Source: Acidihalobacter aeolianus
GTDB taxonomy: Bacteria; Pseudomonadota; Gammaproteobacteria; DSM-5130; Acidihalobacteraceae
Assembly: GCF_001753165.1 (NCBI RefSeq)
Contig: NZ_CP017448.1
Location: forward strand, 2,731,183-2,795,182
Reading direction: 5' to 3'
Length of the DNA stretch: 64,000 nt
In this document: positions 38,630-62,909 of the stretch, piece by piece
Layout of the letters: the number at the start of each line of letters is the position of its first letter
How positions within the stretch are numbered: position 1 is the stretch's first letter
The notes under the pieces: generated by a model
Seen by the model: the letters and a program-made list of their open reading frames with translations, nothing else
The model's database searches: none
What the model was told of the DNA's origin: nothing
Program-made: the position numbers and the translations under genes

Positions 38630-39100
38630 ATGCAACGAATCATCACCGCCTGCCTGAGTATCAGCATTGGACTGATGCTTGCCATTCCATCGATCGCCCA
38701 GGCAAGCGACAACGGCATCGTGACCCTGCGTAGCCACCACAGCGTACCAGTCACCCTGGACCGCCTGATACACGCCCTGAAGCAAAAACACATGACGATT
38801 TTCGCCAGAATCGACCATTCCAAGGGCGCACACGGCGTTGGCCTGGCGCTGCGTCCGACTGAACTGCTGATTTTCGGCAATCCCAAGATCGGGACCAAGC
38901 TGATGGAATGCAAGCAGACCGCGGGTCTCGATCTCCCGCTCAAGGCATTAGCCTGGCAGGATGCCAAAGGCCGGGTCTGGCTGAGCTACAACAGTCCCGA
39001 GTATATCGCTAGGCGTGACCATCTCGGGCATTGTGCCGCCGGGGCCGTGGCCACCATGCACAAGGCGTTGCACGCCTTCGCCGAACAGGCGGTGAAGTAA
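38630..39100 (+). CDS. DUF302 family exported protein
   Basis: A 156-residue protein with a signal peptide (cleavage near AQASDNG) and a DUF302 domain: VTLDRLIHALKQKHMTIFARIDHSKGA, LRPTELLIFGNPKIGTKLM, DLPLKALAWQDAKGRVWLSYNSPEY. Function of the family is unknown. It is the last chromosomal gene before the integrated element; GAGGAGCAAGAC precedes the ATG. Confidence 0.9.
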   Translation: MQRIITACLSISIGLMLAIPSIAQASDNGIVTLRSHHSVPVTLDRLIHALKQKHMTIFARIDHSKGAHGVGLALRPTELLIFGNPKIGTKLMECKQTAGLDLPLKALAWQDAKGRVWLSYNSPEYIARRDHLGHCAAGAVATMHKALHAFAEQAVK

Positions 39101-39150
39101 CAAGAGGCAAGACTGCTGCGGTAGCCGCCCTACGAGCGCGAGCGGGAAAA

Positions 39151-39196
39151 TGGTGGGCCGTGTTGGGCTCGAACCAACGACCATCGGATTAAAAGT
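39151..39196 (-). other. tRNA-Lys 3' fragment, attachment site at left end of element
   Basis: On the minus strand the bases run from the anticodon loop CTTTTAATC (anticodon UUU) through the variable loop, a complete T arm (GTTGG, loop TTCGAGC, CCAAC) and acceptor strand ACGGCCC to A-CCA. The 5' half of the tRNA is absent: bases 39197 onward do not fold with it. This is what remains when an element integrates into the 3' part of a tRNA gene, so it marks one boundary. The intact copy should be at the other end, to the right of the window. Confidence 0.82.
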
Positions 39197-39213
39197 TCTG
39201 CCATAAATCAATA

Positions 39214-39298
39214 ACTTAGCGCAAATCAAGCACTTAGTAAGCAAACTGTCGCAAACATAATATAGGCTGTTTGTTAATACAAAACAATGACTTAGCGC
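39214..39298. repeat. ACTTAG direct repeats near the attachment site
   Basis: ACTTAGCGC occurs at 39214-39222 and 39290-39298, with a third ACTTAG at 39232-39237, all in the same direction and 18-98 bp from the tRNA fragment. Their location suits integrase or excisionase arm sites. The rest of 39197-39389 is A/T-rich and non-coding. Confidence 0.45.
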
Positions 39299-39389
39299 TA
39301 ACGACTGCAAACTAGGTTTTTCTAGCGGATGCACCGCGAGTGTACCGCGAGCGCGGGGTGTACCCCACCCCTAATCCACCACGATCACG

Positions 39390-39415
39390 AAGCCGCCCTT
39401 GAGGCGGCTTTTTTT
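39390..39415 (+). terminator. Intrinsic terminator inside the left end of the element
   Basis: AAGCCGCC and GGCGGCTT form an 8-bp stem with loop CTTGA, followed by a run of T residues. No gene on the plus strand ends nearby inside the element, so it may insulate it from chromosomal transcription. Confidence 0.8.
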
Positions 39416-39587
39416 GTTTTCGAGTTTCGCGCTTGCGTTTTTGGGGACATAGAGAAAATGGACTTGAGGCCGCCGGACTGCGCAGGAAATTGAGAAAAAG
39501 GCCCGTATTTAGGGTTATTTAGACATTTTTGCGCTGTTTGGCGGGTTGAGAATAGCTACTACAGCAAACCATAGGAGAGATAACGCT

Positions 39588-39914
39588 ATGGACCTAATCC
39601 AAGAGAAACAAAAAAAGATAGAAGAGATGTACGGGACAGACCTGCTTTCATATTCGCGGGTCGCTGAAATCATCGGCCTAAAGACTGATTCGATCAGAGC
39701 TATTTGCGGGTCGACGATCAGGAAAGAGCAGCCCTGGGTGAAGAGATTGCAGGCAGGAAAAGTCAGGATGGGGAGAAGGGTCTTTTTCCAATCCTGGGCT
39801 GTTGCGCGGGTTTGGCGCCTGGGAAACTCCCCTCTGACACCAGAAGAAGAACGGTTAACAAGTGAGGGCGCGGTTGCCGCCGCGCCCTCCGCCCAAAACC
39901 CTTGCCCCCGCTGA
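39588..39914 (+). CDS. Small helix-turn-helix-like protein
   Basis: A 108-residue protein of unknown family. LLSYSRVAEIIGLKTDSIRAI looks like a helix-turn-helix and is followed by a basic stretch (WVKRLQAGKVRMGRRVFF). It could be an excisionase or plasmid regulator; this is inference. AGGAGAG supports the ATG at 39588; it is 25 bp from the DnaB-type gene, so they form an operon. Confidence 0.7.
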   Translation: MDLIQEKQKKIEEMYGTDLLSYSRVAEIIGLKTDSIRAICGSTIRKEQPWVKRLQAGKVRMGRRVFFQSWAVARVWRLGNSPLTPEEERLTSEGAVAAAPSAQNPCPR

Positions 39915-39939
39915 GAGAGAAAGAGAAGAGGTAAAGATC

Positions 39940-41370
39940 ATGGGTAAGCAGCACTTTACACCCACGCGCGCCGGCGGGGAAGCGACCCCGCCCCATTCCA
40001 TCGAAGCCGAACAGGCTGTCATCGGCGGACTCATGCTCGACAATGCGACCTGGGATCAGGTAGCCGATCTTGTCAGCGAGGCCGATTTCTACCGGCACGA
40101 TCACCGCTTGATCTTTGGGGCGATCCGGGCCTTGGCCGAAGCCGGGCGGCCGGTAGACGTGGTCACTCTGGCCGACGCCTTGGAACGGGCCGACGCCTTG
40201 GAACAGGCTGGCGGGCTGGCCTATCTCGGCCTTCTGGCTCGAGATACTCCCAGCGCTGCCAACGTTCGCGCCTATGCAGATATTGTGCGCGAGCGATCTG
40301 CGCTTAGGCAGATCGCGGCGCTCGCCCAAGCCTCCGCGGCGCGAGCGTTCGAGCGGGGAACTGCTGCGCTGGAAGCGCTTGAAGAGCTTAGGGAGGAAGC
40401 CGACTCACTAGCAGAGCGGGAAGCGGCGCGGGGGGGTAGGGACACGTCTCTCAAGGCCGCGCTCCGGGCCGCACTCGATTGCATCGAGCTTCGCCATGAA
40501 GCGGGGGCTCTTCCAGGTCTGGCGACCCCTTGGCCTGACCTGGACGACATCACCACAGGCCTGCATCGGGGCGAGATGATTGTCCTGGCTGGCCGGCCAT
40601 CGATGGGTAAAACGGCCTTGGCACTGAACGCCGCGCAGCACGCGGCGGAAAACGGCGCGCGGGTAGCTGTCATCTCGCTAGAAATGACCGCGGCCGGCCT
40701 TGCGGACCGCATGATCGCCGCCGCCAGCGGCCTGCCTCTCTCTCACATTCGAGACCCCAGAAAACTGGACGGCGGCGGGGAAGCCGCATGGGCGCAGCTG
40801 ACGGCTGGGGTGGCTAGGCTGTCAGCCATGGAGGGAGAGCTATCCCTTGATGATCGCCCGGCCCTGACCATCCCCCAGATTCGCGAGTCCCTGCGCGGTA
40901 TGCGAGCCAGCATGGGCGGCCTTGATCTGGTCGTAGTGGACTATCTGCAACTCGTTGTTTCAGAGGGTGAAAACCGCACGCAGGAGGTGTCCAAAATCTC
41001 GCGCGGACTCAAGGCCATCGCCAAGGATTTTGACGTGCCGATGGTCGCGCTCTCACAGTTGAACAGGGGCCTTGAGCAGCGTACGGACAAACGGCCAACG
41101 CTGGGCGATCTTCGCGAGAGCGGCCAGATCGAGCAGGACGCCGATCTCATCGCCTTCATCTACCGCGACGAGGTCTACAACGAGGACAGCCCGGACAAGG
41201 GGACGGCAGAGATCATCATAGCCAAGCAGCGCAACGGCGCCACGGGCACGGTGCGGCTCGCATTTTTGGGTGAGACGTGTTCATTCAAGCCACTGGCGCG
41301 GGATTGGAAGCGACCGCCGCCGCCGATGGCGGAGGCTAAAAGAGGATGGTCCAATGACGCGCCATGGTGA
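39940..41370 (+). CDS. DnaB-type replicative helicase
   Basis: A 476-residue hexameric helicase. The N-terminal domain begins PPHSIEAEQAVIGGLMLDNATWD; the RecA core has Walker A LAGRPSMGKTALALNAAQ, LDLVVVDYLQLV as Walker B and ALSQLNRGLEQRTDKRP, as in DnaB. The chromosome will have its own dnaB, so this copy serves the element's replication. GAAGAGG lies before the ATG. The 3' end overlaps the Rep-like gene by 17 bp. Confidence 0.92.
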   Translation: MGKQHFTPTRAGGEATPPHSIEAEQAVIGGLMLDNATWDQVADLVSEADFYRHDHRLIFGAIRALAEAGRPVDVVTLADALERADALEQAGGLAYLGLLARDTPSAANVRAYADIVRERSALRQIAALAQASAARAFERGTAALEALEELREEADSLAEREAARGGRDTSLKAALRAALDCIELRHEAGALPGLATPWPDLDDITTGLHRGEMIVLAGRPSMGKTALALNAAQHAAENGARVAVISLEMTAAGLADRMIAAASGLPLSHIRDPRKLDGGGEAAWAQLTAGVARLSAMEGELSLDDRPALTIPQIRESLRGMRASMGGLDLVVVDYLQLVVSEGENRTQEVSKISRGLKAIAKDFDVPMVALSQLNRGLEQRTDKRPTLGDLRESGQIEQDADLIAFIYRDEVYNEDSPDKGTAEIIIAKQRNGATGTVRLAFLGETCSFKPLARDWKRPPPPMAEAKRGWSNDAPW

Positions 41371-42217
41371 AATGATAACCACGGCGGGCCACGCCTGCCG
41401 GGTGCCGATTTTCGCCCCCGTGCGCCGGGTCGGGCGCGGCCTAGTGAGACAGCGCGTCGAATCCGCCTGGGGGCATGCGACCATCACCGGCCATCTGGGC
41501 CAGCGCGAGCGCGACGCACTCGACTCAGTGTGCGAGGCGGCTCAGGCGTGGCGCCCGGAGTCCACGGGCGACGTGACCGCCCTGGTGGACTCCGCCCGAC
41601 TGCGGGCCAGCCTGGGCTGGGATCGATGGAAATATTCGCAGATCAGGGACGCCCTGCGCGCGCTACGTGCCGCCGAGATCGAGCTCATCATCCACGGTGA
41701 GCGATCAGAGTGGAGTGGGATCATCACCCACATTGTCGAGGCCGGCGACCCCCCGCCGGAGCGAGTGGGATCACGGTCGCGCTGGAGAACCGCGCCGCCG
41801 GTTCCTGAGCCTGGCCGTACATCGCCCAGGGACGGGATGATGTGGGAAATCACGATCTCGCGGGCATGGATTGCGCTTATGCGGCGGTTGCAAGTACGTT
41901 ACCCGGCGGCCGTATTCCACATGCGTTACGGCGTAAGCCAGGCCGCCGCCCGCTTCATACTGTCCCACAAGCCGGGCGCGACAATGCGGATCGATACCGT
42001 GCTTGACGCCGTGGGCGTGCAGAGCAGAGACCGGGCCCGCGCACGGCGCGAACTCGCCGCCGATGCGTCGCTCATGGCAACGGCTGGCGTTCACATCGAC
42101 TGGGCGGCTGGCGTCATGACGACGCACCCAGCCCCGGAGACGACGCGCCCAGCCCCGGAGACGACGCGCCCAGCCCCGGAAAATACGCGCCCAGCCCCGG
42201 AGCCTCTAGCTCTATAG
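41354..42217 (+). CDS. Putative replication initiator (Rep-like)
   Basis: A 287-residue basic protein. RQRVESAWGHATITGHLGQRERDALD and LGWDRWKYSQIRDALRAL look like tandem winged helices as in plasmid initiators of the TrfA/RepC kind; the match is by pattern only. The C-terminus consists of four repeats of a seven-residue unit (TTRPAPE), encoded by a 21-bp repeat. Coupled to the helicase gene it makes a plausible replication module. A conjugation regulator is an alternative. Confidence 0.6.
   Translation: MTRHGEMITTAGHACRVPIFAPVRRVGRGLVRQRVESAWGHATITGHLGQRERDALDSVCEAAQAWRPESTGDVTALVDSARLRASLGWDRWKYSQIRDALRALRAAEIELIIHGERSEWSGIITHIVEAGDPPPERVGSRSRWRTAPPVPEPGRTSPRDGMMWEITISRAWIALMRRLQVRYPAAVFHMRYGVSQAAARFILSHKPGATMRIDTVLDAVGVQSRDRARARRELAADASLMATAGVHIDWAAGVMTTHPAPETTRPAPETTRPAPENTRPAPEPLAL
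42119..42202 (+). repeat. Four 21-bp tandem repeats in the Rep-like gene
   Basis: Four copies of a 21-bp unit (ACGACGCGCCCAGCCCCGGAG with minor changes) run in frame and encode TTRPAPE-type repeats. Immediately after, CTATAGGCC is repeated in an overlapping fashion (42212-42234). The DNA repeats could act as iterons as well as coding a disordered tail. Confidence 0.85.
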
Positions 42218-42236
42218 GCCCTATAGGCCTATAGGA

Positions 42237-42271
42237 GGCAGCCGCCGCCGCTTGCGGGCGCGGCGGCTGCC
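42237..42271. terminator. GC-rich hairpin after the Rep-like gene
   Basis: GGCAGCCGCCGC and GCGGCGGCTGCC form a perfect 12-bp stem with an 11-nt loop, 20 bp past the stop. There is no T-run; it may be a Rho-independent terminator of weak type or a replication-related structure. Confidence 0.55.
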
Positions 42272-42333
42272 AGAGGCCAGAGGTCGACAAATAGCCGTCT
42301 TCGGCCGCGTCCAGGCCCCATCCGCTTGGCTGA

Positions 42334-42597
42334 TCAACCACGGCCCAACTCCTTCATCTGCGTGACGCCACCAAACACCGGCCCGGTCTCCCGTACCCGA
42401 CCGTTACCCGTCAATGCACTGACCTGACCGTACAACTCCTTCGCACTCCACTCCGCTCGCTGCTCCATCCTTATCGCTTCGCCCATGATCTCGCTTCGAC
42501 GACCCTCGCATTCCAGCAACCTCACGACCACCGTATCCACATCCCGCGCGGCATCCTTGACCCCGAATACGCCCGCGCCAGTCCAAATATTTTCCAA
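42334..42597 (-). CDS. Hypothetical small protein (uncertain)
   Basis: An 87-codon open frame opposite to its neighbours, starting with TTG within the first repeat copy. The sequence (VVVRLLECEGRRSEIMGEAI, MEQRAEWSAKELYGQVSALTG) looks protein-like and helical, but no ribosome site or family is recognised. It may instead be non-coding. An internal ATG about 37 codons in is an alternative start. Confidence 0.3.
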   Translation of the reverse strand: MENIWTGAGVFGVKDAARDVDTVVVRLLECEGRRSEIMGEAIRMEQRAEWSAKELYGQVSALTGNGRVRETGPVFGGVTQMKELGRG

Positions 42598-42676
42598 TTA
42601 ATTTCCCGCTAAACCCCGCTTTAACCCACTTTAATACACGCTTAAAAACTCGTTTGCAATTGTTAGCAAATAGGGG
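42583..42676 (+). repeat. 94-bp regulatory box, copy 1
   Basis: Matches 48860-48953 at 88 of 94 positions. It contains four CRCTWWAA-like sites at 42607, 42617, 42627 and 42639, spaced 10, 10 and 12 bp, so on one face of the helix. A TTTGC-N8-GCAAA dyad follows. It is positioned upstream of a -10-like TCTAAT at 42701, the spacing expected for an activator-dependent promoter. Confidence 0.85.
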
Positions 42677-42715
42677 GTTTTTTCACCTTATAGCTCATGG
42701 TCTAATTAGCCAAGA

Positions 42716-42734
42716 CAGCCGGTTAAGCTGGCTG
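42716..42734 (+). promoter_or_regulatory. Dyad operator, copy 1
   Basis: CAGCCGGTTAAGCTGGCTG, an imperfect dyad exactly 39 bp after the 94-bp box, in the predicted leader of the next gene. An equivalent dyad stands at the same distance after copy 2. The following T residues could let it act as an attenuator. Confidence 0.6.
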
Positions 42735-42761
42735 TTTTGAGCGAAGCACTCGGAGGTTCTC

Positions 42762-43427
42762 ATGACCATGACTTTGACTATCGATAAAGAATTGCCTGAT
42801 GAAACGGTCGCGCCGTTGTATTTCCGCTTTGATGGCGCGTTTGAACCCGGGCTGGCGCATTTGTGCCTGACCGAAAATGGCCATGTTTTTTTTGCGACGA
42901 ACGGCGAACCGGGCGGCGGAGTACCGATGCATGTCCATGAAAAGCGAACGCTGCAATGGAGTGTGTCACCTTATCTGAACCGCGAAAGGGCGCTTGCGCT
43001 GCTGGATGACTCCGGCCTTCAGGCCGCGTTGGAGCGAGTGCATCGTGGTCATTCCGTGCATAGGCGCGCTTGTGGGCCGACAGATGTGAGCTTTACTGAA
43101 GACGCCAAGGCGGCTACACAGGACGTACAAGCTATCCTCGATCTCGCGTGCGCCGAGCCTGAGAATTTGGTGCAGGTGTGGGATCTGGACGACTGGCTAT
43201 TCTCTAATGGGCTGCACGAGGCTTGGCCTGCAGACGTACCGCTCGATAAGGCGTGTGAAGCGCTGGAACTGGCGGCGGTGGAAGATGAGCCTCATGCCCA
43301 CGTCAGCGGAGCCTCGAAGGCAAACATTCGAGACAGCTTGATCGACCGCGTCACGTGGTGCGAAGACATCGAGGACCTGACTGGCGAGCATCTGAAGACA
43401 CGCCTAGAAAATCGCCCAAGCGACTAG
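42762..43427 (+). CDS. Hypothetical protein under repeat-box promoter
   Basis: A 221-residue acidic protein I do not recognise, without signal peptide or membrane helix. The N-terminal half looks beta-rich (PLYFRFDGAFEPGLAHLCL, GHVFFATNGEPGGGVPMHVHEKR), and the C-terminal half is helical and acidic. CGGAGG gives a good ribosome site. It stands alone between the box at 42583-42734 and an intrinsic terminator at 43455. Confidence 0.8.
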   Translation: MTMTLTIDKELPDETVAPLYFRFDGAFEPGLAHLCLTENGHVFFATNGEPGGGVPMHVHEKRTLQWSVSPYLNRERALALLDDSGLQAALERVHRGHSVHRRACGPTDVSFTEDAKAATQDVQAILDLACAEPENLVQVWDLDDWLFSNGLHEAWPADVPLDKACEALELAAVEDEPHAHVSGASKANIRDSLIDRVTWCEDIEDLTGEHLKTRLENRPSD

Positions 43428-43454
43428 CATCATAACGACGAAAAACGAAAACGT

Positions 43455-43478
43455 GGCCGGGATACACCGGCCTTTTTT
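43455..43478 (+). terminator. Intrinsic terminator
   Basis: GGCCGG, loop GATACA, CCGGCC and six T residues, 28 bp after the stop of the preceding gene. It makes 42762-43427 a monocistronic unit. The remaining bases to 43627 show no gene. Confidence 0.9.
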
Positions 43479-43627
43479 GCGCCTGGTGTATTGCTCCAAA
43501 GCCAAAAACAAACAAAGATCGCGGCGCGGCGGCTGCCGGTGCCCGACGCAAGTTCTGCGACGCAAACGCGAGGCCGCTGACGCTGACGCTGAACCGTATT
43601 AGTTTGATTGATAATTGACATGTTTAG

Positions 43628-46600
43628 TCATCTTTCTCTTAAGTTTTCGTCTAACTTCGGTAGGCGTTTAACAAGCCGCTGCGTCTCCACGCTCACTCGC
43701 ACTACCCGCTTGACCAGATCGACGATGTAGCGCGGATCGTTGTGTTCGTCACACCACAGGTTCGGGTCGTTCTTGATACTGCTGTCCTTGGCTGTCGTGA
43801 CCTGATAGCGCTCCATCACCCATTCAATCGCGGACTTGCCGTTGACGACATACTCGAATGCCTCTGGCGGGATGCCTTCCAGGGTCAGTTCGCTGTTGTA
43901 GATGATCTTGGATTTGTCCTTCTTGCTGGGAAACCGCATCTTCGCCACGCGGTAATTCGGCTGTTCAGGAGCATCCAGCAGACCGTGCTGCTTCTGTTTG
44001 TAGCGCTCTTCCAGCGGCCACGGCTCAATCGTTTCATAGTTCAGGTGCAGGTCGGCCAGCTTGCGGCCCGCCGAGGCAAATGCCCTGAACGTCTCGATGC
44101 TGGCAGGCTTAGGAATACGGGGCAGCATGCGCTTGAGGTCGGCGGCATACTGCTGCCGATACTCCGGCGAGTGCAGCAGTCCGTAGACGTGATAGAACAG
44201 GTCTTCTTTGGTGATCGAGTCGTCACCGTAATGCTTGCGATAGGCTTCCAGGGCTTCGTCTGTGATTCCATCACGGCGCACGTAGCCGTCACTGTCTGGG
44301 ACGGCGTCATCCTGCTGCTGGAACAGGTCTGAATCGCCGGATGGTCTATCTTTGTCCGTTTTTTCGTAGACATATAGAGGGAAAAATTGACCTGCCTGAA
44401 TCAGATTCAAGTCTGGAACACAATCTACTATCAAGCACGAATAATCCTTGGTTACTCCAACGCCAGATACTGAGATCGCCAGATTCTGGTGACGCGGTGT
44501 TGGGAATAGGCGTGGCATCTGATACACCATGTCGTTCAGGCGACGATTGAAATACGACCACGCTTTCGTAAACGGCCTATAAATACTCATCACAACAGAG
44601 TTCTGCTCAAGGTCGTATTTCCGTCCACGTTCGGCATCGGACTTCAAGCCACGCGACCACTTGATCCGCTTTGGATCGCTGTCCACGATGGTATCGACAT
44701 CCGGCTTTTCCGTCGCTCCAGCACATGCGGCAGCGTAGCGGTCTACCTCGGTGTTATAGTTGTCGATCATTCGCCGCATGTTGCTCTCAAGCGCCACACG
44801 CGAGAAGTTGTAGGCCCAGTCGTCGCGGCTTGTTGAGATTCCACGCGAGTATGTCTCGAAGATCGTTGCAGCGTCTTTGTCGCTCTTGTCTCCAAGCGCC
44901 ACGAACCCCTCAAACTCCGGATTCCGCTGATTGATCCAGTCACCCGCCTCATTCGGCGTGATGCGCGTCCACGGCACCTTGTCGACGCTGCCAAAGTCCG
45001 CAATGCGGCTGAGCTTTTCTTCACGATCCAGATAATCACCGATGTCTCGATAGAACAACTCACATGGGCCGGTATGCGCAGGGTTTTTCACCATCAAGAT
45101 AATCGCTACCGTGTTGCGTGAACCCGACCCAAACACCTTGCCGCCTTCTTTTCGAGAAAGTTCACCAGCAGTGCGCTGATTTCCTCTCAAATTAAACACA
45201 TACAGATGGCTGAATTCCTGTGTCAGGCGCTTGCGCAGTCCATCTGCCGTGTTGCCGTCGATGAAGGAGCCGTTCGTCACAAAGGCGACCACGCCCTCCT
45301 TGCCGATACGGTCAGAGGCCCAGCGCATCGCCTTGATTTCGGATGCGTAGAGGCTGTTCTTGTTTATCGCAGACGACTGTGCCGCATAGGTTACGCGGAT
45401 ACGCTCATCCAGCTTCGGGTATGCCTGATTCTGGTTGTTATCGTTGGCGCTTGTCTGTCCGGCGGAATACGGCGGATTGCCGATCACCACCCGGATGGGC
45501 TGCTTCTTCTGCCGTTCAACCCGCTCGGCGTTCTCTCTGGAGAACCCACCCTCCAGATGATCACTCTGATCAGCCTCGTACATCTGGAACGTATCCGTCA
45601 GCACGATGCCATCGAACGGCGCATTCTTGCCGCTCACGCCGTGATAGGCCGTCTCGATATTGACCGCTGCCACATAGTAGGCCAGCAGCACGATTTCATT
45701 GGCGTGTAGTTCGTTCCGATATTTGCGCTCTATGTCGTCTGGCTTGATAAGACCAGATTGCAGCAGGCGCACGATGAACGTGCCCGTTCCCACAAAGGGA
45801 TCGATGATCTGCACGTCAGGCGACGATACGCTAATGCCGAAGTGCTTGTTCAGGACAGCCTCGACGCTGTGAACAATGAAGTCCACCGGCTCGATAGGCG
45901 TGTAGACGATGCCCAGCCGCTCGGCCATGCGTGGGAAGGCATTGTTAAAGAAGGTGTCGTACAGGTTCTTGATGATTTCCTGACGAGACTTGTCGCTCTT
46001 GGCGAGCGCCACGCGGCCGCGCACGTTATCGTAGAACCGTTCCAGATCGTCCGTTTCGCTGTCCACGCCATGATCATCGACGTGATCGATGATTCGCTGC
46101 ATGGCTTGGGAGATGGGGTTGTCGTCCGAAAATCCGCGTCCCTCGAACAGTGCATCGAACACCGGGCGGGTGATGATGTGCTGGGCCAGCATCTCGATGG
46201 CTTCTTCCTCTGAGATACCGGGATTGATGTTCTTGCGTAGCCCCTTGAGGTAGGCGTTGAACGCCTTGCGCCCGTTGCTGTAGGGCCGCTCGATCAGCTT
46301 TTCGATGCGTTGGGTGATCCTGTGGGCGATCTGGGCCACGCTCTTGGCCCATTCGGCCCAATACTCACGGTCGCCCAGCTTGCGCGGGATCGCGGCGTAC
46401 ACGGCCTGCTGGATGTCCTCGACAGGAACAAGAGGAATGTCCAGCGGAAGCTGCCCGCCGCCTCCCTCGCTGCCTTTGCCTCCTTTGCCTCGCCCAATGA
46501 CCTTGATGCGCCGCCGGAACTCCGCTTCATCGACCAGGCGTTCATCATGCGCCCGCAGCGCCTTGATGACTTTCCAGATGCCCTTAAACTGCGGATTACT

Positions 46601-48496
46601 CTCAAGATAACTGTTGTAGTCCTTGACCTTTTTTGTCGGGATCGCGACCGGCAGGATGATGTACCCATACTGCTTATCGGGCGCTTTGCGCATGACGCGG
46701 CCGACCGACTGCACGATGTCCACAATGGATTCTCGGGTGTCGAAGAACACCACGGCATCGAGCGCCGGCACGTCCACACCTTCGGACAAACACCGGGCAT
46801 TGGACAGGATGCGGCACTGGCCTGCGTCGGGTTCATCCTTGAGCCAGTCCAGTTCGTCCTTGCGCCGGGCCATGTTCATGGTGCCGTCCACATGATGTAA
46901 TGTGGCATTCACCATGCTGTCGTCGTCTTCGTGCTCCTGGCGGTAGAGCCTGACCAGATCGGCAAAGACTTTCGTGGCCTCATGGGACGCCTTGATCGAC
47001 TTTGAGAACGCCACGGCCCGGCGCATCGGCGCGGTGTCTTCCTCCAGATCGCTGACTTCGCCATCGTCGATGACTTTCAGGCCCTGCTTGGATAACCCCT
47101 TCCAGCTACCGATGATGCGCGTGGCAAAGTCGATGTCCACGGCATTTTTCTCGTCGATCTTGTAGGCGTTGTTGAAACTGTTGGCGACCGATGCCATGCG
47201 GTCTTCGTCCACCGCGACGATCAGCACCTTGTACTCGGCCAGCAAGTCGCGCTGCACGGCCTGCCCGAAGCTCAGGCGATAGAACTCGGTGCCAAAAGTG
47301 GCCTCATCGTCCATGGAATAGAGTACGGCGTTCTTCTCACCGGCTTTGGTTTTGCTCGCTTCGGCGAAGATGCGCGGCGTCGCCGTCATGTAGAGGCGCT
47401 TGCTGGCCCGCAGCACGGCATTGTCATGGACTTTCACGAAATCGGACGCATCTTCCTTGGGAAGCGTCAGTCCGGTGGTTCGGTGGGCCTCATCGCAGAT
47501 CACCAGATCGAAGGCCGGCAGACCGCCGCTGCGCTGCGCGTCGATGACGACCTGAATCGACTGGTACGTGGAGAAAACCACACGGCGGCGCGTGTGGCGT
47601 TGCCCAGCCTGAACGATGGCGCGGCCCAGCCGGCGCGCATCCGTGGTGGCCGGATACGCCAGTTCCGCCGTCTTGATGTCCTCTTCCTCGCGGCCCACGC
47701 GCGAGTCGGAGCACACCACGAAGGCATCGAAGGGCTGTTCGGCTTCGGCTGACCATTCACGCAGGGTCTGCGATACCAAGGTGATGGAGGGCGCAAGGAA
47801 CAGCGTCAGGCCGGTATCGGGCGTAACGGTTTCGTTCAGACGCAGCGCGGTGAAGGTCTTGCCGGTGCCGCAGGCCATGATGAGCTTGCCCCGATCAAGC
47901 CCGGCGAAGCCGTCCACGGTTTCGCGGATGGCCTCCTCCTGATGCTCGCGCAGGTGCTTGCGCGTCCGGCGCTTCATCTGCTCCGGTTTGAGGACATCCA
48001 GCTCTGACCAATCGACGGGGGCTTCCGCGAGGTCTTCGCGATACAGAATGCCGAAGTTCGGTTGATCCGCAATGACGCCTTCCGCGCCTTTGCCCAGCCG
48101 AGCCGTTGTGCTGACGAACAGCCGGTAGGCGAAGGACTGCTCTATGCCGTCAACGGTGAAGACCTTGGCGCTGTCGGCGAGGAAGGACGAGACGTGCGCC
48201 TTGTCGAGCGTCGAGCCGGCGTCGTAGAACTTGCACTGGATCGCCCAGAAGGTGCCCTCGTGCGTTTGGCCGACCAGATCGATGCCGGTGTTGTCGGCTT
48301 TCCAGTCGGCGGGACGTTGCGGCCACTCCGCCCAGGTCCAGACGTGGGCGAGCGTGTTGGCATAGGTCGGGTCGGTCTTGAGGTACTGGACGATCAGGCG
48401 TTCAAACAGCTTGCCTTTGTGGAGTTCGTCATGGGATCGAGCGCGTAAGTTATCCAGAACTGCATCGATGGAATCTGGCCGTGCCGCTTCGTCCAT
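43628..48496 (-). CDS. Type ISP restriction-modification enzyme (single chain)
   Basis: A 1,622-residue single-polypeptide restriction enzyme and methylase of the LlaBIII/LlaGI kind. An Mrr-type nuclease is at the N-terminus (Asp73, Gln87 and Lys89 in GIDLVGQ and WAIQCKFYD). The superfamily 2 helicase follows: Walker A GTGKT at 210-214, DEAH at 335-338, SVGRVMRK motif VI near 597. A coupler leads to the adenine methylase with DPFVGTGTF at 899-907 and NPPY at 1007-1010. The last ~450 residues should hold the target-recognition domain. It translocates on DNA and cleaves after head-on collision. AAGGGGATG lies before the ATG. Confidence 0.92.
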   Translation of the reverse strand: MDEAARPDSIDAVLDNLRARSHDELHKGKLFERLIVQYLKTDPTYANTLAHVWTWAEWPQRPADWKADNTGIDLVGQTHEGTFWAIQCKFYDAGSTLDKAHVSSFLADSAKVFTVDGIEQSFAYRLFVSTTARLGKGAEGVIADQPNFGILYREDLAEAPVDWSELDVLKPEQMKRRTRKHLREHQEEAIRETVDGFAGLDRGKLIMACGTGKTFTALRLNETVTPDTGLTLFLAPSITLVSQTLREWSAEAEQPFDAFVVCSDSRVGREEEDIKTAELAYPATTDARRLGRAIVQAGQRHTRRRVVFSTYQSIQVVIDAQRSGGLPAFDLVICDEAHRTTGLTLPKEDASDFVKVHDNAVLRASKRLYMTATPRIFAEASKTKAGEKNAVLYSMDDEATFGTEFYRLSFGQAVQRDLLAEYKVLIVAVDEDRMASVANSFNNAYKIDEKNAVDIDFATRIIGSWKGLSKQGLKVIDDGEVSDLEEDTAPMRRAVAFSKSIKASHEATKVFADLVRLYRQEHEDDDSMVNATLHHVDGTMNMARRKDELDWLKDEPDAGQCRILSNARCLSEGVDVPALDAVVFFDTRESIVDIVQSVGRVMRKAPDKQYGYIILPVAIPTKKVKDYNSYLESNPQFKGIWKVIKALRAHDERLVDEAEFRRRIKVIGRGKGGKGSEGGGGQLPLDIPLVPVEDIQQAVYAAIPRKLGDREYWAEWAKSVAQIAHRITQRIEKLIERPYSNGRKAFNAYLKGLRKNINPGISEEEAIEMLAQHIITRPVFDALFEGRGFSDDNPISQAMQRIIDHVDDHGVDSETDDLERFYDNVRGRVALAKSDKSRQEIIKNLYDTFFNNAFPRMAERLGIVYTPIEPVDFIVHSVEAVLNKHFGISVSSPDVQIIDPFVGTGTFIVRLLQSGLIKPDDIERKYRNELHANEIVLLAYYVAAVNIETAYHGVSGKNAPFDGIVLTDTFQMYEADQSDHLEGGFSRENAERVERQKKQPIRVVIGNPPYSAGQTSANDNNQNQAYPKLDERIRVTYAAQSSAINKNSLYASEIKAMRWASDRIGKEGVVAFVTNGSFIDGNTADGLRKRLTQEFSHLYVFNLRGNQRTAGELSRKEGGKVFGSGSRNTVAIILMVKNPAHTGPCELFYRDIGDYLDREEKLSRIADFGSVDKVPWTRITPNEAGDWINQRNPEFEGFVALGDKSDKDAATIFETYSRGISTSRDDWAYNFSRVALESNMRRMIDNYNTEVDRYAAACAGATEKPDVDTIVDSDPKRIKWSRGLKSDAERGRKYDLEQNSVVMSIYRPFTKAWSYFNRRLNDMVYQMPRLFPTPRHQNLAISVSGVGVTKDYSCLIVDCVPDLNLIQAGQFFPLYVYEKTDKDRPSGDSDLFQQQDDAVPDSDGYVRRDGITDEALEAYRKHYGDDSITKEDLFYHVYGLLHSPEYRQQYAADLKRMLPRIPKPASIETFRAFASAGRKLADLHLNYETIEPWPLEERYKQKQHGLLDAPEQPNYRVAKMRFPSKKDKSKIIYNSELTLEGIPPEAFEYVVNGKSAIEWVMERYQVTTAKDSSIKNDPNLWCDEHNDPRYIVDLVKRVVRVSVETQRLVKRLPKLDENLRER

Positions 48497-48859
48497 TGCG
48501 CATCCCCTTGGCGGTTGACTCTATGTGTCTAAGGGCGCCAAGGATACATCAAACGACGTTTGCTCACGGCAGCGAGGCAGCACAGTCCGAGACAGCCCGA
48601 GGCAGCCCGAGTCCTCGTTCTTCGCGGCCTTCATTCATTCTAGTGTTGATCGAGAAAGCGTCTACCTCCCTGTCCGCTGTCGGCCATATTGTCCCCAGCA
48701 TGTCCTGTCCCTGCGTATGTGGTGTCAATCATGCTGCTGTTGACGTGGATAGGCCGTGATTTCTTTCCCCTGACGGTCACAGCGATGATCGTCGAGCTAG
48801 GTGCTTCCTGCCAAGGACAAAATCTCGGCTGAACATTGGTGCGCCAGCGCGCCCATCGC
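48497..48859. other. Intergenic region upstream of the Type ISP gene
   Basis: About 360 bp without a recognisable gene. It contains short near-repeats of a CCGAGRCAGC type (48570-48612). The promoter of the Type ISP gene must lie here on the minus strand, but I see no clear -35/-10 pair. Confidence 0.4.
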
Positions 48860-48953
48860 CCAAATATTTTTCAAAAAATTTCCCGCTAAACCCCGCTTTA
48901 ACCCACTTTAATACACGCTTAAAAACTCGTTTGCAGGCGTTAGCAAATAGGGG
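48860..48953 (+). repeat. 94-bp regulatory box, copy 2
   Basis: Second copy of the box at 42583-42676, 88 of 94 bases the same, including all four helically phased CRCTWWAA sites. The sequence after it diverges at once, so the conserved unit ends sharply. It precedes a TTAAATAAT -10-like element at 48975-48983 and a secreted-protein gene. Confidence 0.87.
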
Positions 48954-48992
48954 ATTTGTTCGCGTGCTCGCTTCTTAAATAATCAGTTCAGA

Positions 48993-49011
48993 CAGCTGGT
49001 TAAACCTGCTG
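48993..49011 (+). promoter_or_regulatory. Dyad operator, copy 2
   Basis: CAGCTGGTTAAACCTGCTG, a 19-bp dyad with one mismatch, exactly 39 bp after the 94-bp box. It would lie at about +3 to +21 of the transcript predicted from the TTAAATAAT element. Confidence 0.65.
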
Positions 49012-49040
49012 CATGAATGAAATTATTAAGGAGCCAAAAA

Positions 49041-49934
49041 ATGAAAAATCTTCAAATGTTCGTCGCCTCCGCCGCCATGGCGGCTGCCATCCCCGCCGCG
49101 CATGCTGGGACGACCGACCACGTTTCAATTTTCGCTGGCGATGCCAGCCAGGGTGCGGTGTTTTCTCAGACCTGGGGAAATCCCTCCTTTGGCCCCTGGG
49201 CGCGAGTGGGCAGCACCATCAAGAGCTTTTCTGCTCCTCCCTCCCTTAGCTCCTGTCCTCCTCGATGCCTGACCGGAGTGGTGTTTTTGACCGGCACCAC
49301 TACCCCGCCCCCTTCCCGCCGGTCGGCTCAGGGATCGGCCGATGCGACTGTCAACGGAACGATTGGCTTTGCTTATCTGCCGCTGGTGGACCTGGGCAGC
49401 GGCTTCAATGGAGGCCTGTCCGGGTCGATCTCACCGACCCTGACGATCACCCAGCAGGCCAAGGCCCTGGGTGGGCTGGGCTTCACCGGGCGCCTCGATC
49501 TGGCGGACGGCTTCGCCCAGGCCCGGCGCGCGGGCTGGCGTCTTGAGCAAGTACAGGCCCCGGTGACGGTGTCGGCCGGCGTGCGCTACATCCCTTTGAT
49601 AGGCATGGATTATCTGTCCGCCAGCGTGGGCGAAATCCAGCCGCAAGGCCCGGCCGCTCCCCGTGCGCGCGGGGTGGTCGCCTCTCTGGTCATCCATGCC
49701 CCGCGGTGGAATGCGAAGGTCTCCGCCCAGCGCCTGCCGGGCGGCAGCGAGATTCCCCTGGCTTATCAGCCGGTCGGCCCGGCGCGGCTGGTGGGAGACA
49801 GCTATGCCTCGCAGGTGGTGGCCGTGTCTGGTGCGTGGAAGGTGCCGGACGGTGCGGTGGTCACTGCCACCGCCGCAGACGTGGACGGCGGCAAAGACAT
49901 GCAGGTGGAGATGGGCGTGCGGATGCGATTTTAA
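49041..49934 (+). CDS. Exported protein of unknown function
   Basis: A 297-residue protein with a clear signal peptide (cleavage near AAHAGTTD). The mature part is Gly/Ser/Ala-rich with alternating strands (GTIGFAYLPLVDLGSGF, VTVSAGVRYIPLIGMDYLSASVG, DMQVEMGVRMRF) and a C-terminal Phe, which suggests an outer-membrane or periplasmic beta protein. A proline/serine segment with two cysteines lies near 71-76. AAGGAGCC precedes the ATG at 49041. It is the first gene after regulatory box copy 2. Confidence 0.78.
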   Translation: MKNLQMFVASAAMAAAIPAAHAGTTDHVSIFAGDASQGAVFSQTWGNPSFGPWARVGSTIKSFSAPPSLSSCPPRCLTGVVFLTGTTTPPPSRRSAQGSADATVNGTIGFAYLPLVDLGSGFNGGLSGSISPTLTITQQAKALGGLGFTGRLDLADGFAQARRAGWRLEQVQAPVTVSAGVRYIPLIGMDYLSASVGEIQPQGPAAPRARGVVASLVIHAPRWNAKVSAQRLPGGSEIPLAYQPVGPARLVGDSYASQVVAVSGAWKVPDGAVVTATAADVDGGKDMQVEMGVRMRF

Positions 49935-49941
49935 CAGCCAA

Positions 49942-49964
49942 CCCGCCCGGCAAAACCGGGCGGG
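49942..49964 (+). terminator. GC-rich hairpin after exported-protein gene
   Basis: CCCGCCCGG and CCGGGCGGG with loop CAAAA, 8 bp after the stop codon. No T-run follows, so some read-through into the mobilization genes downstream is likely. Confidence 0.6.
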
Positions 49965-50033
49965 ACTTGCGTTATTCGGAAATTCTGGAAAATGGCAGTA
50001 GGTAATTTTTAGGTAATTTTTGAGGGTTTCGTC

Positions 50034-50381
50034 ATGGCGTTCTACCGCACGGATTTTTACCAAAACCTTCCCACTCCCGGCGACCGCGCGGACGCGTTCG
50101 ACCAGTGGCTGGCAAGCCAGCGAGGACCCGTCCACCCCGTGATCCAGCGGGTCGTGGAGAAGTCCAGGCAGGGGCGGTACGACGCAGAGCAAGAAATGAT
50201 GCTGTGGGGGCCGTGGGCGCGATTTTTGGAGATTTTGAAAATCAGAAATTTGCGCTGGTGGCACCTGCATGGCGGGCCGTGTCGGCAGGTGACGCATATC
50301 ACCCATACCCCCCGCGCGCGCGGTTGGGGATGGGCTGCGGTGATCGGGCTGGCAATGCTGCTCGCACCGATCTTCTCGTGA
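50034..50381 (+). CDS. Small membrane-anchored hypothetical protein
   Basis: A 115-residue protein of unknown family with one C-terminal membrane helix (about 96-113, GWGWAAVIGLAMLLAPIFS). The soluble part is rich in Trp and Arg (LRWWHLHGGPCRQVTHITHTP). TGAGGG precedes the ATG. The position ahead of mobilization genes suggests a conjugation accessory, which is unproven. Confidence 0.65.
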   Translation: MAFYRTDFYQNLPTPGDRADAFDQWLASQRGPVHPVIQRVVEKSRQGRYDAEQEMMLWGPWARFLEILKIRNLRWWHLHGGPCRQVTHITHTPRARGWGWAAVIGLAMLLAPIFS

Positions 50382-50427
50382 TTTTCTATGACGTGGATTC
50401 CGTCATATCAAATAGGTGGTGAATGAC

Positions 50428-50922
50428 ATGAATAAGAAAATGTTTTTAGTAACCCCCGTGCTTGCCGCGCTGCTGGTGAGTGGATGCGCGAGCTACCGGG
50501 CGGATGAGTACCAGGGTGGACTGCAAGCCATGCAAACCCTGACAGGCGTCGTGGTGAATGATCGTGTGGTGCACATCCAGGCCCCGCGCGCAGGGGTCGG
50601 CAGCATGGCCGGAGCCGCCATCGGCGGCATCGGCGGCGCGTCTTTAGCGCAGGGTGCTGGCCCGCTGGGCCAAGCCCTGGCCGGCACGGTGGGCGCCATC
50701 GCTGGCGGGATCGTCGGGCAGACAGTGGAGAGTCAGGCGACCGGCCCTGCCCAGCAGGTCACGGTGCAGCTGGCCGGTGGCCGGCTGCTCACTGTGGTAG
50801 AGCAGGGGCCTCAGCTGCATGTCGGCGAGCGCGTGGGTATCACCATCTCTCCCCGTGGCCGTGCCCGTGTTTTCCCAATGCCGCAGGCGAAGCAGAAGCA
50901 GAGTGGAGGCAGCCATGGATGA
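50428..50922 (+). CDS. Glycine-zipper lipoprotein
   Basis: A 164-residue outer-membrane lipoprotein of the SlyB/Pcp type. The lipobox is LLVSGC at about residues 15-20. Glycine-zipper helices are visible in GAAIGGIGGASLAQGAG and GTVGAIAGGIVGQTVE, followed by a small beta domain (VTVQLAGGRLLTVVEQG). An ATG at 50428 with AGGTGG upstream is chosen over a GTG at 50416. It overlaps the zinc-ribbon gene by 8 bp. Confidence 0.88.
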   Translation: MNKKMFLVTPVLAALLVSGCASYRADEYQGGLQAMQTLTGVVVNDRVVHIQAPRAGVGSMAGAAIGGIGGASLAQGAGPLGQALAGTVGAIAGGIVGQTVESQATGPAQQVTVQLAGGRLLTVVEQGPQLHVGERVGITISPRGRARVFPMPQAKQKQSGGSHG

Positions 50923-51373
50923 GAAACCTGAAATCCGTCGCGCGGCCTGCCCGCGCTGCGGAGATGATTTGAAACGTATTTGGAGCTCAAAGAAACAGCG
51001 TCACTACTGGCTTTGCCTGAATGGCGAGGATGAGTGCGGCGCGATCTATTCAGACGATGGCGGCGAGCCCAAAACGACGCAGATCACCAAGGAAGCCGTG
51101 CCAGATTTGACCTGCCCTGAGTGCCGGCAAGCCACCCTCGAGCTCGTCGAGGGTGCCAAATATGGCTCCTTTTTGGCCTGCCCTGAGTGCGAACAAACCT
51201 TCGATCTGCTCGACCAAAGCCTGCCTCCATCGCCTGAAAACACGGCCCCGCTGTGCAGCGAAGATCCGGAGCACGGCCACATGAAACGCCGCTCGGGCAG
51301 GAACGGGCCTTTTTGGGGATGCCGCCGCTTCCCTGAGTGCAAAGCGACGCGGCAGATCGAGGATGAGGGCTGA
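50915..51373 (+). CDS. Topoisomerase-type zinc-ribbon protein
   Basis: A 152-residue protein with three Cys-rich ribbons: CPRCGDDLKRIWSSKKQRHYWLC-type near 12, CPECRQATLELVEGAKYGSFLACPEC at about 67-92, and RNGPFWGCRRFPECKATRQI at the C-terminus. The last is the C4 zinc ribbon found in topoisomerase I tails. It probably binds single-stranded DNA and may assist DNA processing in transfer or replication. GTGGAGG precedes the ATG; it overlaps the next gene by one base. Confidence 0.8.
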   Translation: MDEKPEIRRAACPRCGDDLKRIWSSKKQRHYWLCLNGEDECGAIYSDDGGEPKTTQITKEAVPDLTCPECRQATLELVEGAKYGSFLACPECEQTFDLLDQSLPPSPENTAPLCSEDPEHGHMKRRSGRNGPFWGCRRFPECKATRQIEDEG

Positions 51374-51708
51374 TGGGACGCATCACCGAAACCCATTCCG
51401 CCGCCACGGTCGCCGCTGGCTGGTCCATCCGTTCCACGGCTGCGGTGGCGATGCTGATCTATGCCGCCCATTGGGTAATGAACGATCAGGAGTGGAAAAC
51501 GATCGTGCAGTGGCTGCACTCGGGCGGCGCGTTCCCCGCCTGGGCCATTTTAAGCCCATGGATGGCGGGGGCGCTGGCGGTGACAGGGGCATGGCTTTTC
51601 GTGTGGGCATGGCGCATGCCAAGCCGAAAACGAATTCAAAAAACCGAGCGCGGCAGCAAGGCCGCGACGGTGGAACAGTTGAGAAAAATGACGGAGAAAG
51701 CGAAATGA
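51373..51708 (+). CDS. Two-helix membrane protein upstream of coupling ATPase (1)
   Basis: A 111-residue protein with membrane segments at about 20-36 and 58-80 and a basic cytosolic tail. The tail ends RGSKAATVEQLRKMTEKAK and is shared with the next protein. It belongs to the cluster that ends in the coupling ATPase, each gene overlapping the next. A role as membrane anchor or partner of the ATPase is inferred from order and shared tail. Confidence 0.75.
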   Translation: MGRITETHSAATVAAGWSIRSTAAVAMLIYAAHWVMNDQEWKTIVQWLHSGGAFPAWAILSPWMAGALAVTGAWLFVWAWRMPSRKRIQKTERGSKAATVEQLRKMTEKAK

Positions 51709-51995
51709 AAATAGACGTGAAGAATGTGAAGAAGGTCGCGGTGTGGGCTGGCCTCTTTATCTGCCTGCTTGTCGTCGGCGAGATCGCCGGGCAGACCCAG
51801 ACCCTCGGCGGGGAAATTTTCGCAGGGTTGACTGATCTCGCATTCCTAATCCTGATGGTCGCCCTTTTTTGGAAGGTCCTGAAATCTATTACCCACCTCA
51901 TCTTCCATCGCAAGAAAGGGGGTGAAGAACATCGTCGAGGCAGCAAGGCCGCGACGGCCGAAGATCTGGCGCGCATGACTCAGGAGAAAGAGTAA
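51705..51995 (+). CDS. Two-helix membrane protein upstream of coupling ATPase (2)
   Basis: A 96-residue protein with membrane segments at about 11-29 and 40-58 and a cytosolic tail ending RGSKAATAEDLARMTQEKE. Its last 20 residues resemble those of the preceding protein, and a 19-bp stretch of DNA is identical in the two genes (51652-51670 and 51939-51957). ATGA overlaps at the start and TAATG at the end couple it to both neighbours. Confidence 0.78.
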   Translation: MKIDVKNVKKVAVWAGLFICLLVVGEIAGQTQTLGGEIFAGLTDLAFLILMVALFWKVLKSITHLIFHRKKGGEEHRRGSKAATAEDLARMTQEKE

Positions 51996-53773: not shown

Positions 53774-54209
53774 ATGGAACGACGGAAACACACCCGAAAC
53801 CGGCGATGAGAATTTCTGGTATGCGCTTACCCAGGTGCCGCCTGAGCAGCGCGAAAATTGGGACCCGAAGATCAGAATGAGCGTCGAGGGTCTTGAGGCG
53901 CAGATGGCGAAACAGGCGGCGGATGCCGAGCGCGACGAAGCGCCCGCACCCGCGAATGTGATTGCGGCTCGCGAGCTAATGGCGGGTGTGGAACTGGACC
54001 ATTTCTACGTCCATCGACTGGTGGAAAGAGTGCTGTCCAGGTGCGTCGATCATGCGACAGCGATCGACGGGTTTTGGACCAAGGAGCGTGCGCAGGAAGT
54101 GTTGAGTCCGGTGATTCGTGACGCGGACATTGAGGCCGAAATTCGGGAAGTTTTTCGTGGTCTCGTGCTTCAAATCCTGTTCGTGATCAACCATGAACCG
54201 CAGCACTGA
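53766..54209 (+). CDS. Hypothetical mobilization-region protein
   Basis: A 147-residue acidic soluble protein I do not recognise. It is mostly helical (VEGLEAQMAKQAADAERDEA, LDHFYVHRLVERVLSRCVDHA). AAAGGAG favours the ATG at 53766 over 53760. It overlaps the coupling-ATPase gene by 8 bp, so it belongs to the same operon, and is its last gene. Confidence 0.7.
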   Translation: MTEWNDGNTPETGDENFWYALTQVPPEQRENWDPKIRMSVEGLEAQMAKQAADAERDEAPAPANVIAARELMAGVELDHFYVHRLVERVLSRCVDHATAIDGFWTKERAQEVLSPVIRDADIEAEIREVFRGLVLQILFVINHEPQH

Positions 54210-54416
54210 AACTCAAACCAAAACCCCGAAATTCGGGTCGGAAAACCCGGCCGCTGGCGCGGCCGAGTTTTCCTCACACCCCTGCACCATGGGTGCAAAC
54301 ACCGCAACCCCCAAACCCAAGCGGGGCGCGGCCTGTAGGTGTATACACCCTGTAAACAGGTTTTGGGCGTTTCGGCTATAACTCATTGATTTTACTTAAG
54401 AAAAGGTGTTTACACA
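54210..54416. promoter_or_regulatory. Control region of relaxase operon; candidate oriT
   Basis: A 207-bp non-coding stretch. A dyad TGCACC-ATG-GGTGCA lies at 54283-54297. GGTGTATACACC (54338-54349), CCTGTAAACAGG (54349-54360) and GGTGTTTACAC (54405-54415) are related palindromes, the last just before the TraC-like ATG. Such repeated operators suggest autoregulation by the RHH protein encoded downstream. The place between coupling and relaxase operons also suits an oriT, but no known nic site was recognised. Confidence 0.55.
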
Positions 54417-54719
54417 ATGAACGACAAGACGATGAGCAAATCTGAACGAATCCTTGCGCAGATCGAGGAACTGAAAAAGGCGGCGGCGGAGGCGAAGAAA
54501 CGCGAGCGAGAGCAGCAAAAACGCCAGATCACTAAAGCGGCAGTTCGGGCCGGAGTCGATCGTCTCGGCCTCTCTCAAGAAGCTCTTGAAAATGAGTTTA
54601 GGGCGATGGTCGAACGGTTGAACCCCGCTTGCATAAATGAAAAACGGGGAGAAGATCGTGTCAAGCCAATTGTTGAGGATGTGACCCATGGCGAGCAAGA
54701 CGATCTCGACTCGATTTGA
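54417..54719 (+). CDS. TraC-like relaxosome accessory protein
   Basis: A 100-residue basic protein: a coiled-coil N-terminus (ILAQIEELKKAAAEAKKRER) followed by ITKAAVRAGVDRLGLSQEALENEFRAMVERL. That order resembles the TraC/MobC-type proteins of agrobacterial and IncP mobilization systems. It is the first gene of the relaxase operon and overlaps the RHH gene by 32 bp. Assignment is by pattern only. Confidence 0.6.
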   Translation: MNDKTMSKSERILAQIEELKKAAAEAKKREREQQKRQITKAAVRAGVDRLGLSQEALENEFRAMVERLNPACINEKRGEDRVKPIVEDVTHGEQDDLDSI

Positions 54720-55104: not shown

Positions 55105-55108
55105 TCGG

Positions 55109-59244: not shown

Positions 59245-59282
59245 TATGACGCCCGGAGCGTCATATAAAATCCGATCATGAC
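59225..59282. repeat. 58-bp direct repeat, left copy flanking R-M region
   Basis: Matches 63741-63798 except in the four bases at the palindrome centre. It holds the 3' end of the preceding gene, the dyad ATATGACGC...GCGTCATAT, TATAAA and an ATG. Here the ATG opens only nine codons before a stop. Confidence 0.88.
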
Positions 59283-61495: not shown

Positions 61496-61500
61496 GTAAT

Positions 61501-62763: not shown

Positions 62764-62909
62764 GTCTCGTCCTTGAAGGGGAATCTTGGGGGACATTATG
62801 ACCCATGATTGACCCATTATCCAGGTTTTATTCAGAGGCATGTTCCTGCTGTTGCTCAATCTCATCCTGTGCCGGTGCTGAATATGCCATATCGGTCCCT
62901 ACCATGCTC

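Follow-up and report, generated by a model that had tools for sequence, protein, structure and literature searches.

Phased-repeat promoter-like boxes in an integrative mobilizable element of Acidihalobacter aeolianus and their possible link to its attachment end

Most integrative mobilizable elements (IMEs) highly probably time their excision through the regulators of a helper, according to the part of an IME review used here (PMC5704250; the other papers cited below are likewise drawn on in part). Several described systems place regulatory proteins on repeated sites. The direct repeats bound by Apl of phage 186 are one helical turn apart and lie both at the attachment site (att) and between promoters; at the latter the protein is a repressor (PMC7498355). 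RdfS, which links excision with conjugation, binds at attP as well as at promoters and has no consensus site in the excerpted account (PMC11963761). The promoters of SGI1 respond to the AcaCD activator of its helper and are described in the excerpts as lacking a -35 hexamer (PMC5058578, PMC4207636). BldC assembles head to tail on direct repeats (PMC5859096), whose spacing PMC11963761 gives as one DNA turn. Here we describe a 64,000-nucleotide stretch of Acidihalobacter aeolianus (RefSeq GCF_001753165.1, NZ_CP017448.1, positions 2,731,183 to 2,795,182; G000:C1:2731183-2795182 in our numbering), called the window in its full length, which takes in the left end of a 34.8-kb IME. Inside this element lies a real, element-confined set of three promoter-like elements, each with direct repeats about one helical turn apart, and two short GTTNGC pairs like those that close the boxes stand at the element's left attachment end (attL). 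We consider it about an even chance (roughly 0.5) that these boxes are upstream activating regions of three promoters, forming a small regulon within one IME in which a winged helix-turn-helix (wHTH) protein of the recombination directionality factor (RDF) type would couple excision to mobilization.

A close likeness is to Apl and to the similar dual-purpose RDF/regulators P2 Cox and P4 Vis, with one-turn repeats at att, beside integrase sites that are putative here, and at promoters away from att, and with a small helix-turn-helix (HTH) protein, here present as a candidate alone. In contrast to the Apl system, the promoters here serve mobilization genes of a tRNA-borne mobilizable element, the attL array is short, and the position of the arrays just before a weak -35 points to activation, whereas Apl represses pR and pL. 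RdfS of ICEMlSymR7A and RdfS1271 resemble the model proposed below in being RDF-type wHTH proteins that link excision with conjugation and oligomerize along DNA. RdfS does so without a consensus site, whereas letters are conserved here; the product of a gene at 39588 is likened to these proteins as a candidate. The AcaCD promoters of SGI1 and of mobilizable genomic islands (MGIs) are alike in that several promoters share an activator box, have no good -35 and follow a class II-like layout. The AcaCD core is GCCCAAAATGGGC, whereas the motif here is different, the genome has no FlhC homologue and the resident contig with a type IV secretion system (T4SS) has no box. BldC of Streptomyces, like the protein of our model, is a small MerR-like protein on direct repeats; it is a chromosomal developmental regulator, unlike the element-borne candidate here, and we know of no link between BldC and mobile elements.

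Three boxes upstream of weak promoters

The boxes, the putative promoters that follow them and the leader hairpins behind these are as follows.

42583-42676, + strand: box a; an AT-rich lead followed by direct repeats at intervals of some 10 bp (42607, 42617, 42627, 42639), then GTTTGC-N4-GTTAGC at 42652-42667
48860-48953, + strand: box b, 88/94 identical to box a; GTTTGC-N4-GTTAGC at 48929-48944
63208-63301, + strand: box c, diverged; GTTTGC-N4-GTTGGC at 63277-63292
42678-42706, + strand: putative promoter a; weak -35 TTTTTT (42678-42683), 17 bp, -10 TCTAAT (42701-42706)
48955-48983, + strand: putative promoter b; TTTGTT, 17 bp, AATAAT (48978-48983)
63303-63331, + strand: putative promoter c; TTTTTC, 17 bp, AATAAT (63326-63331)
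42711-42739, + strand: predicted leader hairpin a, 13 pairs, enclosing a 19-bp dyad at 42716-42734; leader -20.8 kcal/mol
48988-49016, + strand: predicted leader hairpin b, 10 pairs with mismatches, enclosing a dyad at 48993-49011
63343-63366, + strand: predicted leader hairpin c, 10 pairs; as DNA, 11-bp perfect arms around 2 bp

An earlier sequence-only reading of this DNA had matched boxes a and b over 94 bases, and the match holds without a gap (blastn E 2.7e-37 within the window); ungapped similarity extends over 152 bp at 82%, spacer and dyad included. That reading had also placed a diverged third copy before 63404, and box c is indeed such a copy (58 bp at 76% identity, E 7e-7 in the window), with 57 of the 94 box columns identical across a, b and c in the same register. 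Four CRCTWWAA-type sites had been proposed for box a: those at 42617, 42627 and 42639 are strict matches, and the one at 42607 reads CGCTAAAC, agreeing at 7 of 8 letters. The TTTGC part is better read as direct repeats one turn apart, GTTTGC-N4-GTTRGC, than as an inverted site. Strict CRCTWWAA occurs eight times on both strands of the window: seven sites are in the boxes, and the eighth (63313) falls within the copy c spacer. Of two chromosome controls, one of 39 kb has no such site and one of 44.8 kb has a single one; the Markov expectation for the element is 3.6.

The phasing is also found with no motif supplied. We counted, in 60-bp windows, the bases equal to the base 10 bp downstream (lag-10 self-match), and boxes a, b and c reached 36, 35 and 32 of 60, the sole loci in 64 kb at 31 or more; Markov shuffles of the boxes attained the observed value in 0, 0 and 1 of 1,000 cases. 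By this test direct repeats about one helical turn apart are present at all three promoters, and the earlier suggestion that the pattern fits protein-binding sites is borne out to that extent. Lag 12 is likewise high in a and b (34 each) because the last CRCTWWAA lies 12 bp from its neighbour, and 13 loci in the window attain 32 at that lag. Among 14 other pieces of sequence, one locus on a 162-kb contig (L064:607) scored 34 at lag 10 and the rest 31 or less. The scan is a simple motif-free way to find such arrays in other elements.

All three boxes point the same way as the gene that follows, whose start codon is preceded by a Shine-Dalgarno-like sequence and lies 86-103 bp past the end of the box. 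When the copies are aligned on TTTGCA, TTT-rich hexamers with two of the six -35 letters fall in the same columns, followed after 17 bp by TCTAAT (a), AATAAT (b) and AATAAT (c), each with five of six -10 letters and again in the same columns. The spacer had been called non-conserved, which is nearly right, a and b agreeing at 19 of 36 scored columns, but it contains these -10-like hexamers. Neither a nor b came up when 39100-50500 was scanned with the sigma-70 consensus, as expected of promoters that lack a -35; c lies outside the range scanned. Judged from this layout, the copies are likely promoters, which we read as activator-dependent.

The two dyads stand 39 bp past the box in both copies, as first described. 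Folding of the leaders, whose hairpins stand shortly after the likely transcription start, gave z values of -2.8, -1.7 and -1.6 (a, b, c), with 1, 10 and 14 of 200 shuffles as good; for the hairpins alone, which were picked after the dyads had been seen, the counts were 0, 6 and 0 of 200. The stem of copy a includes G-U pairs, so this copy makes a better RNA hairpin than DNA palindrome. For the downstream dyad, a 5' leader RNA hairpin fits at least as well as a DNA operator. None of the four matches that Rfam gave for 39000-64000 reached its gathering score.

In the 3.5-Mb, two-contig genome the exact 13-base core is present three times, each time in a box, and a one-mismatch core at C1:1733282 has no surrounding box on reading. 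A scatter of such repeats at random places in many genomes would have spoken against a regulon. A loose pattern run over the genome contigs found nine stretches against about five expected by chance (a hand estimate); none aligns with the box, and three of the nine are one coding site in picocyanobacteria. The box a region has no match in the plasmid and phage collections, and a pattern scan of viral contigs for relatives of the box gave none, although another pattern might find more. Copy b was compared with 369 genomes of the class, five of them from the host order. Besides the host (G000) and a genome of the same genus (G001), 11 gave hits, at E 1.6e-4 to 0.009 over about 19-47 bp, none spanning both the repeats and the TTTGC core. 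This search scored at most two candidates per genome and left the host's own copy c unlisted, so weak relatives were possibly missed.

The attachment end and a candidate regulator

The element lies between two 46-bp repeats and contains all three boxes. By its gene content it is an IME, because it has an integrase, the 46-bp repeats and a MobF relaxase and lacks a mating-pore ATPase of its own. The second 46-bp copy sits in an intact tRNA-Lys(TTT) gene (C1:2805097-2805142; tRNA at L014:15097-15172) adjoining the tyrosine integrase; a gene resembling those for sulfur transport is also next to the tRNA. No CagE_TrbE_VirB protein was found in the genome, and the sole P-loop_TraG match, a T4SS ATPase, is at 111168-112352 of the second, 162-kb contig (G000:C2, L061-L069). 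The surrounding genes there are presumably an F-type tra cluster, and this contig is likely the helper of the mobilizable element. The features at the ends of the IME that bear on the boxes are these.

39151-39196, - strand: the 46-bp attL core, which repeats the 3' part of tRNA-Lys(TTT) without a mismatch (blastn 46/46)
39205-39295, + strand: three putative integrase arm-type sites AAAWCAANNACTTAG (39205, 39223, 39281)
39241-39256, - strand: GTTTGCGACAGTTTGC, a tandem GTTNGC pair 3 bp from arm site 2
39297-39312, - strand: GTTTGCAGTCGTTAGC, a tandem GTTNGC pair 1 bp from arm site 3, with the motif as in the boxes
39588-39911, + strand: gene of the candidate regulator, 108 aa, adjoining attL
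C1:2805079-2805093: fourth putative arm site AAAWCAANNACTTAG, inverted, 3 bp before the right core

The putative arm site AAAWCAANNACTTAG is found four times exactly in the element and once more at two mismatches; at up to two mismatches the chromosome has 1 in 39 kb and 0 in 40 kb. In G001 the arm sites of the left end are exact and the right end reads AAATCAAAGACTTAC.

The link between the boxes and attL rests on the GTTNGC pairs. The pattern TTTGCANNNGTTRGC occurs exactly four times in the whole genome, in the three boxes and on the minus strand of attL at 39297-39311, and the reversed control pattern does not occur at all. Markov shuffles of the element hold a mean of 0.012 such matches, with at least one in 6 of 500. 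The more general GTTNGCN4GTTNGC is found five times in the element, against shuffle means of 0.135 (maximum 1, n = 200) and 0.108 (maximum 2, n = 500), and pairs at 20 other spacings (6 to 26) occur there 0 or 1 times each. Elsewhere, pairs at spacing 10 are absent from 39 kb and from the 162-kb contig and occur once in 45 kb and once in 16 kb.

On the favoured reading, a small winged-helix protein of the RDF type (Xis-, Apl-, RdfS- or BldC-like) would occupy the array in several copies, head to tail, and would bend the DNA there and bring RNA polymerase to a promoter without a good -35. The same protein would bind attL and favour excision, so that the mobilization genes for TraD and the MobF relaxase would be switched on together with excision, and the leader hairpin would probably protect or tune the mRNA. 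The best candidate for this protein is the 108-aa product of 39588-39911. It has matches at E up to 0.01 in 20 of the 369 class genomes, the host and G001 counted. HTH_17, which we take to be an excisionase/MerR-type wHTH, was matched in four of the five relatives scanned, at E 0.00017 to 0.027 and below the curated cut-off. Among the contexts fetched for 10 of the 19 other listed places with relatives, four have an integrase 35-67% identical to that of the element, one has a relaxase and a TraD-like protein, and five have neither. Viral contigs hold no homologue of the candidate.

One of these places is worth recording for itself: L094 (G001:C6:367001-381000) holds a relaxase and a TraD-like protein that share 39% and 26% identity with those of the element, plus a relative of the 39588 product, and is probably a further element.

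A number of points weigh against the reading of the boxes as an RDF-driven regulon. The GTTNGC motif was chosen after the matches had been seen, and at two or fewer mismatches TTTGCANNNGTTRGC is little enriched in the window (12 against 7.5 expected, equalled by 6 of 100 shuffles). The attL region has no long 10-bp array (lag-10 0.25, with 760 of 1,000 shuffles as high); it has two short GTTNGC pairs alone, one of which is not an exact TTTGCANNNGTTRGC match. Boxes a and b stem from one duplication and the G001 copies are identical, which leaves c and attL as the independent evidence; six of the eight CRCTWWAA sites belong to the duplicated pair, so that count is weaker than it appears. The palindrome of copy c is centred about 4-5 bp off the position predicted from a and b, and dyad a is unremarkable as DNA (7 of 9 pairs, equalled by 56 of 500 shuffles). 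As for the candidate, Pfam gives no match to it even with E allowed up to 1, its single-sequence fold is poor (predicted local distance difference test, pLDDT, 47), and the relative at L095 seems, on reading the sequence, to have a separate Xis-like open reading frame beside the integrase, so the family may not be the RDF there. A related backbone in the genome G159 (TraD about 70% identical) is without the box, which suggests that the array is young or fast-changing; nor was a box present in the stretches compared from the related backbones of G237, G336, G333 and G122. The identity of the protein and the sign of regulation are inferred from sequence patterns, and the sign may prove negative, since the known effect of Apl at its promoters is to repress.

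A bolder form of this reading, which we offer tentatively and hold rather doubtful, is that the element is self-governing: its own excision factor would coat phased repeats at the element end and at the three promoters as one cooperative switch for excision and mobilization genes, with no helper activator, and each transcript would start with a protective hairpin. If true, the element would be a counter-example to helper-timed IMEs, its mobilization promoters sharing a site with its own att and not with the T4SS contig. The literature listings searched, subscription papers not covered, yielded no account of this element or of IME mobilization promoters that share RDF-like arrays with att.

Alternative explanations

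The alternative that survives best, though we think it unlikely, keeps the same regulon and gives it another regulator of the element, such as a relaxosome protein or the Rep-like protein (41354-42217), for which the repeats would serve as iterons, with the attL pairs a coincidence. The confinement of the exact box core to the element is as expected here too, the Rep-like gene (so called on reading; no family matched) and a DnaB gene lie just 5' of box a, and tandem repeats are typical of initiator sites. However, iterons usually form one cluster at an origin rather than standing before three gene groups, no direct-repeat family is present in the 251 bases around the rep start, and the attL pairs adjoin the arm sites. 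The Rep-like protein has no homologues in viral contigs.

A dedicated regulator might also be dispensable, the boxes being copies of a strong or curved promoter with phased AT runs, to which host nucleoid proteins bind if anything does. The 82% similarity of a and b over 152 bp does speak of one duplication, the AT runs are phased, and boxes b and c are in the window's top 0.3% for predicted curvature (from wedge parameters; 71 and 26 of 1,000 composition shuffles as bent). Box a, however, is ordinary (84th percentile, 601 of 1,000 shuffles as bent), and copy c keeps specific letters (ACCCCGCTTTAACCC, CGTTTGCA) beyond A/T phasing, which makes this explanation a rather improbable one. Curvature as the sole explanation is rejected, since it fails for copy a.

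Improbable, too, is a hijack of the helper as in SGI1, in which the master activator of the resident conjugative plasmid would recognise the box and thereby turn the mobilizable element on. The 162-kb contig does bear the TraG-type T4SS ATPase, and the SGI1 promoters are likewise without a -35 in the part of the account used, with a -10 22-24 bp past the site (PMC5058578). Yet that contig has neither a copy of the box nor a GTTNGC pair at spacing 10, and its CRCTWWAA sites are scattered (10 in 162 kb). The genome has no FlhC (PF05280), for which the E. coli control was positive and alongside which FlhD was not searched, and it is at the element's own att end that the GTTNGC pairs recur.

Two further possibilities can be dealt with briefly. 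A promoter of the Frpo/ssi type, which works as single-stranded DNA in a leading region while that strand enters the recipient in conjugation, would suit a repeated promoter-like element before uncharacterised genes on a mobilizable element, but is very improbable, the single-stranded DNA folding no better than shuffles (z +0.35 to +0.83, six of six strands). The chance is slighter still that three similar copies of a small dispersed repeat, like a miniature inverted-repeat transposable element (MITE), ended up before genes by accident: on reading, the flanks reveal neither terminal inverted repeats nor duplicated targets, and the three genomic copies are all promoter-like, with no plasmid or phage match to the box a region.

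Genes behind the boxes, relatives and cargo

The earlier view that the boxes join three unrelated genes holds for the shared element before three genes and fails on their unrelatedness, all of them lying in one IME.

42762-43427, + strand: gene behind box a, 221 aa, family unassigned; terminator-like hairpin at 43455
49041-58567, + strand: same-strand gene run behind box b, a putative operon
49041-49934: first gene of that run; on reading, secreted and probably an outer-membrane protein (outer-membrane-like C-terminus)
50416 and 50819, same run: lipoprotein-like on reading, and zinc-ribbon
51995-53773 and 55064-58567, same run: TrwB/TraD and MobF relaxase (family matches)
63404-63703, + strand: gene behind box c, 99 aa, family unassigned

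For the first genes behind the three boxes, neither Pfam nor NCBIfam gives a family at E 0.001, nor does PHROGs at 0.1; when E is relaxed to 1, DUF4082 alone matches the box b protein (E 0.06). None of the three has homologues in viral contigs. In plasmids, tblastn found the 221-aa protein in two records at 30-36% and nothing for the 297-aa protein, the 99-aa protein or the candidate regulator; among the class genomes the 221-aa protein is in 3 of 369, the host and G001 counted.

G001 has copies a and b letter for letter and lacks c. Between G000 and G001 (L013/L014 against L017/L018), identity is 98.8% over the element's left 12 kb but about 78-83% for the mobilization genes and the right chromosome flank, which suggests that the left part moved recently by transfer or recombination.

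Between its repeats the element holds a DnaB-like helicase, the Rep-like protein, TrwB/TraD and the MobF relaxase, together with restriction sets of type ISP (43628-48496), of an EcoRII-like kind with Dcm and Vsr (59814-62865) and of type I (L014:7156-13844). A second Rep-like protein at G000:C1:1608010-1608717 is 33% identical to the first and lies in DNA of 54% G+C, with no box in the surrounding 16 kb. At the 3' end of the first Rep-like gene, a 21-bp tandem repeat (42118-42201) encodes a repeated PAPETTR-like peptide. The element also has a second promoter-like repeat, at 59225-59282 and 63741-63798 (58 bp at 97%), which holds the palindrome TATGACGC-N5-GCGTCATA; its 63741-63798 copy is directly 5' of a Dam-like N6-adenine methyltransferase gene (63794; L014:4976-5620).
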